DNA from: Streptomonospora salina
GTDB lineage: Bacteria; Actinomycetota; Actinomycetes; Streptosporangiales; Streptosporangiaceae
Assembly: GCF_014204715.1 (NCBI RefSeq)
Contig: NZ_JACHLY010000001.1
Span: 2,635,001 to 2,699,000, forward strand
Direction of reading: 5' to 3'
Length of the DNA: 64,000 bases
A program made the translations under genes and the position numbers. The notes under the pieces are model-generated. The model saw only the letters and a list, made by a program, of their open reading frames with translations, was not told the DNA's origin and did not search any database. Below, one piece after another: positions 1-1,548 of the stretch. Within the stretch, counting starts at the first letter, position 1. The number at the start of each line of letters is the position of its first letter.

Positions 1-1548
1 GTCCACGACGATCAGCTTGAGGTCGTGCTGCTGCTTGAGCCGCCGGCACTTCGCGCGGATCTCCATCATCGACAGGTTCGGTGAGTCGTCGATGAACAGG
101 GGCGCGCTGGCGACTTCGCCCATGCGGCGGGCCAGGCGCGCCCAGTCGTCGTCGGTCATCAGCCCCGACCGCATCGTGTGCAGCGCCACCCGCGCCTCGG
201 CTGAGAGCAGGCGCATGACGATCTCGTTGCGCCCCATCTCCAGGCTGAAGAACACGCTGGTCAGCTGGTTCTTGATGGAGGCCGCCCGCGCGAAGTCCAG
301 TGCGAGCGTGGAGTTGTGCGTGGGGATCCGCGCCCGCGTGGCCAGGTAGAGGCGGTCGGGGTGGTCGACCTGGACGCAGCGCACCGGAACACTGGCCACC
401 CGCCGGGCGGCGATCACGCGGTGCGGAGCGCCGCCGCGCCCGGCGGATCCGTCCACAGGCTGGGGATCGAGCAGGGCCGCGGCGCCCGGAGTGCGGGCGG
501 CCGCCGCTGCACGGCATCCGGATTCCGCGGCGGTGTTCTCCCCCGGACGCCGAGCGGCGATCGCGATGCCCGCAGGCCCGCCGCCGGCGGGCGCGTGCTC
601 CAGCTCGGCGGCGAGTTCACCGGTGGTGGCCAGGCCGTGCACCGGCCCGCCCGACCCTTCCCGCAGCGTGGGCCACTGGTGCCGGGCGTCGGCGACCACC
701 GCGGTGCCGTCGGCGAACTCCAGCTCGTAGCAGGGCCGCCCGCGCATCACCTCGGTCGCCGCGACCACCCGCGTGGGTGTGCCGTCGGCGGCCACGAGCT
801 CGCCTCCCACGGCGACGTCGCCCATGGTGGTCCAGCCGTGCGGGGTGGGCAGCGGGGTGTCCAGCGCCAGCGCCTTGCCCACGGCCGGGCGTGCGGCGAC
901 GATGACCATCTGCCCCGGGTGCAGTCCGTTGGAGAGCTGGTCCAAGTCGGTGAACCCGGTGGGCACACCGGTCATGGAGCCGTCGTGGGCGGAGATCGCC
1001 TCGATCTCGTCCAGAGCCCCCGGCATGATGTCGCTGAGCGGCAGATAGTCCTCGCCGGTGCGCTTCTCGGCGACGCGATGGATCTCGGCTTGGGCGTGGT
1101 CGACCAGGTCGTCGACTTCGCCGTCGCCGGAGTAGCCGATCTGGGCGATGCGTGTGCCGACCTCCACGAGGCGGCGCAGCACCGCGCGGTCGGAGACGAT
1201 GCGCGCGTAGTAGCCGGCGTTGGCCGCGGTGGGGATGGCCTCGGTGAGCGTGTGCAGGTACGGCGCTCCCCCGACCCGGGCGATCTCGCCGCGCTTGGTG
1301 AGCTCGGCGTTGACCGAGATGGCGTCGACCGGCTCGCCGCGCGAGAACAGGTCGACGGTCACGTCGAAGACGGTCTGGTGGGCCGGGCGGTAGAAGTCCG
1401 CGGACCGCACGATCTCGACGACCTGGGTGATGGCCTCCTTGGACAGCAGCATGCCCCCCAGCACGCTCTGCTCGGCCATGATGTCGTGCGGCGGTGTGCG
1501 CTCGAATCCGCTGCCGGTGTTCTCCGGCGGGTGTTCGGCGACGCTCAC
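1..1548 (-). CDS. dnaB: replicative DNA helicase DnaB, 5' part, intein-containing
   Basis: Hexameric replicative helicase that unwinds DNA at the fork. The GTG start at 1548 is preceded by an AGGGGGAA ribosome binding site. The 225-residue N-extein carries the DnaB N-terminal domain (HDIMAEQSVLGGMLLS) and the start of the RecA-like domain (GFTDLDQLSNGLHPGQ, ARPAVGK). Walker A is split: GK is followed by a 187-residue intein, after which STLALDFARAASIK resumes the P-loop, then FFSLEM and the Walker B start LKLIVVD at the window edge. The C-terminus lies outside the window. The frame is open throughout, so this is an intein and not a disruption. It is transcribed divergently from the MATE gene, and the intergenic region holds DnaA-box-like sequences. 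Identity is secure from motifs. Confidence 0.96.
   Translation of the reverse strand, partial: MSVAEHPPENTGSGFERTPPHDIMAEQSVLGGMLLSKEAITQVVEIVRSADFYRPAHQTVFDVTVDLFSRGEPVDAISVNAELTKRGEIARVGGAPYLHTLTEAIPTAANAGYYARIVSDRAVLRRLVEVGTRIAQIGYSGDGEVDDLVDHAQAEIHRVAEKRTGEDYLPLSDIMPGALDEIEAISAHDGSMTGVPTGFTDLDQLSNGLHPGQMVIVAARPAVGKALALDTPLPTPHGWTTMGDVAVGGELVAADGTPTRVVAATEVMRGRPCYELEFADGTAVVADARHQWPTLREGSGGPVHGLATTGELAAELEHAPAGGGPAGIAIAARRPGENTAAESGCRAAAAARTPGAAALLDPQPVDGSAGRGGAPHRVIAARRVASVPVRCVQVDHPDRLYLATRARIPTHNSTLALDFARAASIKNQLTSVFFSLEMGRNEIVMRLLSAEARVALHTMRSGLMTDDDWARLARRMGEVASAPLFIDDSPNLSMMEIRAKCRRLKQQHDLKLIVVD
313..873 (-). other. DnaB mini-intein, class 3 (W-C-T) type
   Basis: In-frame insertion of 187 residues between Lys and Ser of the DnaB Walker A motif. 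It begins ALALDTPLPTP and ends IPTHN, followed by Ser +1. Position 1 is Ala, not the usual Cys/Ser nucleophile. The three class 3 residues are visible: Trp67 in block B (ARHQW), Cys166 in block F (PVRCVQVD) and Thr185 before the terminal His186-Asn187. By analogy with characterised class 3 inteins, Cys166 would attack first to form a branched intermediate. Between blocks B and F lies about 95 residues of Ala/Gly/Arg-rich sequence with no recognisable LAGLIDADG motif, so the homing endonuclease seems lost. Splicing competence is inferred. Confidence 0.92.

Follow-up and report, generated by a model that had tools for sequence, protein, structure and literature searches.

Evidence for a class 3 mini-intein in the Walker A motif of the chromosomal DnaB helicase of Streptomonospora salina

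The stretch of DNA analyzed here, referred to as the window, is 64,000 nucleotides long and corresponds to C1:2635001-2699000 in the genome. It contains, at its beginning, the 5' part of dnaB, whose frame runs past the window start, to window position -1649. The stop-to-stop frame is 1128 amino acids long; in our reading of the sequence, the start codon is probably the GTG at 1546-1548. When the frame is scanned with Pfam, the DnaB N-terminal domain, DnaB_C, Intein_splicing (653-1068), LAGLIDADG_3 (856-939) and AAA_25 are found. The single Intein_splicing match is due to a second intein, located outside the window, and not to the insertion described below.

Translation of positions 313-873 gives 187 residues without stops, starting with Ala and ending with Thr-His-Asn, in frame with the rest of dnaB, which stays open on both sides: ...VAARPAVGK precedes these residues, and STLALDF... 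follows them. The insertion thus separates the Lys and the Ser of the Walker A motif (...ARPAVGK/A...HN/STLALDF), which is the DnaB-b insertion site; the original prediction, made from the sequence alone, of an Ala-first insertion at this place is confirmed by the translation. No Pfam or NCBIfam model names the insertion at E <= 1e-3, and annotation by these two collections would therefore miss it. The possibility that the genome has a further copy of the intein was also considered, and rejected: only weak matches are present, one with E 0.006, crossing 4 stops, and one with E 3.8. The features are reported in Table 1.

Table 1. Features of dnaB and of its insertion; positions refer to the window, and residues are numbered from the first residue of the insertion.
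Feature	Position	Strand	Notes
dnaB, 5' part	1..1548	-	Pfam DnaB and DnaB_C, NCBIfam TIGR00665 on whole frame
N-extein of DnaB, C-terminal ...AARPAVGK (Walker A Lys)	874..1548	-	
Class 3 mini-intein (supported assignment), DnaB insertion site b, 187 aa	313..873	-	
C-extein of DnaB, first part, STLALDF...	1..312	-	
Ala1, no nucleophile at position 1	871..873	-	Ala in 97/97
Cys48, equivalent of M. smegmatis DnaBi1 redox partner Cys48	730..732	-	97/97
Block B, D62-x-x-H65-x-W67	673..690	-	
Region between block B and block F, residues 70-149, 80 residues	427..666	-	
Predicted strand and helix, residues 76-92	598..648	-	AlphaFold2 secondary structure, block pLDDT; T83 T84 invariant
Residues 80-118, match to flank preceding LAGLIDADG core in long relatives	520..636	-	hhalign
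Cys166 (block F:4), putative initiating nucleophile	376..378	-	chemistry by analogy, PMC5222942 and PMC6195587
Block G, Thr185-His186-Asn187	313..321	-	
Ser+1, also Walker A Ser of DnaB	310..312	-	

Class 3 inteins are defined by a Trp at B:12, a Cys at F:4 and a Thr at G:5, with no need for a nucleophile at position 1, while class 1 inteins are defined by a Ser, Thr or Cys at that position; the residue following a class 3 intein is Ser or Thr, with one known exception featuring Cys (PMC5222942). In the insertion, position 1 is Ala, and not one of the three class 1 residues. W67, C166 and T185 are found exactly where the W-C-T triad had been proposed, along with H65 (B:10), the penultimate H186, the terminal N187 and Ser+1.

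The same signature was evaluated in the relatives. Of the 200 genomes searched at the family level, 118 match at E <= 1e-3, some of them outside dnaB. Sequences were examined for 90 of the 118 (30 loci returned plus 60 fetched); the remaining 28 are mostly weaker matches, and for this reason the conservation counts tilt towards query-like inteins. An intein was obtained from 54 of the 60 fetched loci: L092 runs off the contig end, in L073 and L101 no start was found by the extraction pattern, and in L109, L111 and L112 the intein is preceded by a P-loop other than the DnaB one. From an earlier group of 56 loci, including the named ones, 50 gave an intein: no start was found in L002, L003, L053 and L056, L025 ends with its contig, and L055 is a viral gene, where the end was missed by the pattern. 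Together, the 45 distinct sequences of the earlier group and the 54 of the fetched one resulted in 97 different inteins of site b, the query being one of them.

Ala1, Cys48, Asp62, His65, Trp67, the block F Cys and the final Thr, His and Asn are present in 97 out of 97 of these inteins, a set picked by likeness to the query. The extraction pattern demanded His-x-Trp/Phe and an HN ending, so that conservation at those positions is preset or only partly independent; Ala1, Cys48, Asp62, the block F Cys and the Thr were free to vary. In the splicing domain as a whole, 19 of the 107 columns are invariant, and 25 more are conserved in at least 95% of the sequences. Two observations had been named beforehand as arguing against the class, a Cys or Ser at position 1 in orthologues and a loss of the block F Cys or of the Thr: neither occurs in any of the 97.

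Inteins of similar aspect, featuring Ala1, Cys48, the block B His and the Trp, follow the P-loops of the non-DnaB genes in L111, L112 and L109, from relatives within the family. The P-loops are GATGSGK and KKGSGK, the former of which we take to be FtsK-like.

Solved relatives are close. In a phmmer search against the PDB sequences, the best matches are 6rix (E 1e-43), 6riy (7.5e-43) and 6bs8/6own (2.3e-41), all named "Replicative DNA helicase" and all class 3 according to the entry titles; next after these DnaB inteins come two gp41-1 inteins, with E values of 0.017 and 0.44. An AlphaFold2 model, built from an alignment of 14 mini-inteins, has a mean pLDDT of 82, with 121 residues at 90 or above, and its predicted fold is of the HINT type: the top structure by VIA-align is 6bs8_A (Z 22.9, rmsd 1.0 Å, 127 residues aligned, 63% identity), followed by 6rix_B (Z 22.4), 6riy_A (Z 22.2) and then by a Prp8 intein (Z 18.9). 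The first seven rows returned by Foldseek are occupied by the same three entries, 6bs8, 6rix and 6riy. The class 3 split intein 6zgq reaches only a Z of 15.6, under several inteins of other kinds: the predicted fold is therefore near to the DnaB-b inteins, rather than to class 3 at large, and does not fix the intein class by itself. The assignment of the insertion as a class 3 mini-intein, as originally proposed, is supported by the signature, the closest solved relatives, the predicted fold and the conservation taken together. Close relatives have already been solved in mycobacterial DnaB, among them the crystallized M. smegmatis DnaBi1.

This intein (6bs8, 6own) is located at the P-loop with Ser+1 and features Ala1, Cys48, Asp62, His65, Trp67, Cys118, Thr137, His138 and Asn139 (PMC6195587). 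The two inteins share the Walker A site, Ser+1 and the endonuclease-free state. Their numbering is identical through block B, and the last 22 residues match one to one; the Streptomonospora intein has 187 residues versus 139, the extra 48 being located between blocks B and F. Within this region lies a Cys120, without counterpart at that position in the five congeners. The M. chimaera DnaB-1 intein (6rix, 6riy), also class 3, comes from the same gene and is the best PDB sequence match; it has 145 residues, with a linker shorter than that of the Streptomonospora intein. The M. leprae DnaB intein, likened here by its description, is also a class 3 mini-intein, with proven splicing (PMC5222942). 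The purified M. smegmatis intein was found by another group not to be well folded (PMC7664689).

Within the genus, an intein is found at site b in all 6 Streptomonospora genomes examined, own included, with lengths of 184-201 aa; the five congeners' inteins are 59-77% identical to the query. S. nanhaiensis (L047), outside these six genomes, has at the same site an endonuclease-bearing form of 415 aa. Literature searches, which left most subscription papers outside, returned nothing on class 3 inteins in Nocardiopsis or on a Nocardiopsis DnaB intein, and, for intein together with Streptomonospora, only a bacteriocin review.

Selection was evaluated on the 15 pairs formed by the six congeners, in all of which the frame is open, by using 382 extein codons (a part of the extein), 107 splicing-domain codons and 56-80 linker codons. 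The dN/dS ratio is 0.01-0.11 for the extein, 0.14-0.46 for the splicing domain and 0.37-1.09 for the linker, the last values being rough because the linker alignments are gappy; the order extein < splicing domain < linker holds in 15 out of 15 pairs. The proteins encoded by the compared extein codons are 94-100% identical. As judged from these sequences, the pattern is what should be expected if the intein is functional and its spacer only loosely constrained.

The linker itself is present, as had been claimed, but measures 80 residues (70-149) and not about 95, the borders originally given being wider. No Pfam family is found in the 187 residues at E <= 0.01, in agreement with the anticipated lack of a LAGLIDADG endonuclease, while LAGLIDADG_3 is found in both of the long relatives scanned. 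These (L037, from N. prasina, and L047, both of 415 aa) belong to the DnaB-b inteins of Nocardiopsis and other relatives, and share site and signature with the Streptomonospora mini-intein; unlike it, they exceed the Pfam cut-offs for both LAGLIDADG_3 and Hom_end. The 97 site-b inteins range from 134 to 501 aa: 14 are shorter than 217, 31 fall at 217-379 and 52 have 380 or more. Mycobacterial DnaB-b inteins are described as free of endonucleases (PMC5050341); the long forms found here indicate that site-b relatives outside mycobacteria do have them. Many of the long inteins (L037, L031, L033 and others) also contain, between the endonuclease blocks, two or three CxxC pairs, found in none of the short ones, as if, judging from the sequences, a zinc-binding insert had been gained or lost separately.

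The suggestion that the linker is a decayed endonuclease scar holds in part. When a profile is built from the middle regions of the 52 long inteins, each of the 31 inteins of intermediate length matches it with at least 55 bits. Against the query linker, in contrast, 145 of 1000 self-shuffles score as high, and the match is not significant. The corresponding numbers of shuffles, out of 1000, are 90, 8, 0, 819 and 960 for the linkers of the five congeners (L005 to L009, in this order), 61 for L036, 1 each for L010, L027 and L090, and 0 for L011, L012, L078 and L084. When the six genus linkers are joined into a profile and compared with the 52 long regions by hhalign, a score of 24.8 is obtained, which none of 200 column shuffles equals, the highest of them reaching 15.3; the E value is 0.004, for one comparison, with an HH-suite probability of only 8.5%. 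The match involves residues 80-118, and corresponds to the flank of the endonuclease, not to its core. The scar reading is thus supported through the relatives, and not by the query sequence alone. A similar proposal has been made for the linker of the M. smegmatis intein, which is shorter (PMC6195587).

For part of the linker, the model predicts an ordered fold rather than a scar: a strand at 76-83 is followed by a helix at 84-92, both modelled with confidence, and Thr83-Thr84 are invariant in 14 out of 14 mini-inteins. The pLDDT is 66 at 91-100, 80 at 101-110 and below 50 at 113-145. On the basis of the model, we read residues 76-92 as a probably retained fold, and residues 93-150 as mostly spacer.

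Loss of the endonuclease is supported by the span of the site-b lengths, from LAGLIDADG-bearing forms of 501 aa down to 134 aa; that the change was a loss, rather than a gain, is what we infer. The losses cannot be reliably counted on the tree, obtained from 107 columns by a quick method and poorly resolved (5 starred out of 94 inner branches). The least number of changes between mini and long forms on this tree is 7; the six genus minis need 2, and their single origin is thus not supported by it. A free-standing endonuclease acting in trans was considered and, as far as Pfam LAGLIDADG_3 can tell, rejected: this model matches only one place in the genome, inside the second dnaB intein. With an almost unbroken run of lengths at a single site (134 to 501 aa), these inteins are useful for the study of homing endonuclease loss with splicing kept.

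The second intein is located in the same dnaB, beyond the window start (L004, G000:C1:2628001-2640000). It is 426 aa long (LRESG/CLTADT...VHN/SIEQD), with Cys1, Ser+1 and LAGLIDADG_3, and we provisionally assign it to the H4 loop, where M. smegmatis DnaBi2 is inserted (PMC6195587). It is found also in S. alba, while in the other four congeners LRESG-SIEQD is uninterrupted: within the genus, the mini-intein is present in 6 out of 6 genomes, the endonuclease-bearing second intein in 2 out of 6. M. smegmatis dnaB likewise contains two inteins, the second of which bears an endonuclease, and this mycobacterial layout is now seen in another actinobacterial lineage.

A DnaB paralogue, free of inteins, is present on contig C3, of 28,986 bases (L122, 6718-8280): it has 445 aa from the Met used, with ARPSLGKSTLALD, and is 58% identical, over 438 residues, to the chromosomal DnaB, both insertion places being uninterrupted. 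The other frames of the contig look plasmid-like by eye. A frame of 476 aa contains a further, partial DnaB_C match, at G000:C1:1938497-1938688, which scores 24.7 bits by itself and 37.1 when its neighbours are added. The original prediction made replicative helicase activity dependent on splicing. This should hold for the chromosomal gene, whose Walker A motif is interrupted by the insertion; not every DnaB of the cell needs it, as the paralogue on C3 is intein-free. The latter is likelier to replicate its own element than to serve the chromosome.

The sequence, the signature, the predicted fold, the conservation, the selection pattern and the length series observed here lead to a reading in which we place very high confidence: the insertion is a class 3 mini-intein, at site b of the chromosomal DnaB, which would splice as DnaBi1 does and would descend from an endonuclease-bearing intein. 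Both the splicing activity and the order of its steps are what we infer, by analogy with M. smegmatis DnaBi1. In class 3 inteins the block F Cys is obligatory as the first nucleophile, and two branched intermediates are formed. Cys166 (F:4) would here attack the bond between Lys(-1) and Ala1, giving a block F branched intermediate; the N-extein would then pass to Ser+1, and cyclization of Asn187 would release the intein. An acyl shift would finally rejoin Lys and Ser, restoring the Walker A motif (GKS) and hence ATP binding. The ancestor would be an endonuclease-bearing intein at site b, whose descendants kept the strand and helix ahead of the LAGLIDADG core but not the core itself. The mini-intein is real but largely ordinary, with a splicing chemistry, predicted by analogy, which is unusual yet known.

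A different account is that of a splicing-dead remnant, with its motifs kept, in a cell where the intein-free DnaB of contig C3 replicates the chromosome. Such a protein, of 445 aa, does exist, on a contig of 28,986 bases, and dN/dS is higher in the splicing domain than in the extein, as seen above. The extein, however, with its high identity and low dN/dS across the 6 congeners, is unlike that of a dead gene; the catalytic residues are found in 97 out of 97 inteins, and the paralogue, on a small contig, is just 58% identical to the chromosomal protein. A dead remnant is accordingly considered very improbable. Even less credit, so little as to be almost nil, is given to a mistaken class 3 assignment, the intein being really of class 1 or class 2: Ala1 by itself would fit class 2 too, but no residue of the Trp-Cys-Thr triplet is missing and the solved structures closest to the intein belong to class 3, while class 1 requires Ser, Thr or Cys at a position (PMC5222942) where Ala is found in all 97. 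Both classes were rejected on the basis of Ala1 and the full triplet.

Another possibility, complementing the splicing-competent class 3 mini-intein rather than replacing it, is that splicing is regulated: oxidation, through a Cys48-Cys166 disulfide, or zinc, bound at Cys166, Val167 and Tyr176, would slow it, and stress would pause the maturation of the helicase. In M. smegmatis DnaBi1 a Cys48-Cys118 disulfide is induced by peroxide (PMC6195587), and effects of both oxidation and zinc on splicing were measured (PMC6195587, PMC7360933). The cysteines corresponding to this redox pair, C48 and C166, are in place in the Streptomonospora intein and kept in 97 out of 97 relatives; the equivalents of the zinc contacts, Val167 and Tyr176, do not vary among the 14 mini-inteins. 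Yet all seven Cys48 substitutions tried in DnaBi1 abolish splicing (PMC6195587), and catalysis or folding alone can explain the conservation. Moreover, Cys48, called "non-conserved" in PMC6195587, is just as invariant in endonuclease-bearing forms, from minis of 134 aa to forms of 501 aa, which is not what a late host adaptation should look like. Since 19 of the 107 columns are invariant, it is one of a small set, and not unique; conservation alone cannot tell a redox role from a structural one. Regulation of this kind, argued by analogy, is regarded as possible, and is put forward tentatively.

That Cys48 does not vary among the DnaB-b inteins is relevant to whether the proposed oxidative-stress switch would have evolved as an adaptation, or would simply come along with a residue required for splicing. 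That a Cys48 redox trap is an old, fixed property of the actinobacterial DnaB-b class 3 inteins, rather than a late host adaptation, seems to us rather unlikely. If it were so, oxidation- or zinc-sensitive maturation of the helicase would be widespread among these inteins; in S. salina, the sensitivity would hit the chromosomal DnaB and spare the intein-free one of contig C3.

In phage class 3 inteins, in contrast with DnaB-b ones, Cys48 varies. The query matches 368 phage records at E <= 1e-3, none of them over 80% of its length; among the 40 matches listed, the gene is mostly that of terminase. Seven viral regions were read, six of them from the 40 listed plus L055; L056, where the match begins at residue 47 and the end lacks a class 3 block F, was left out of the count. 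The Trp, the block F Cys and the Thr are shared by 7 out of 7, while Cys48 is present in four (L123, L124, L126, L127) and absent in three (L125, L128, L055). In L123, from Brevibacterium phage Rousseau, a class 3-type intein, featuring the Cys48 equivalent, is located in a DnaB-like helicase, directly after the P-loop Lys (GEGAGK), with Thr at +1.
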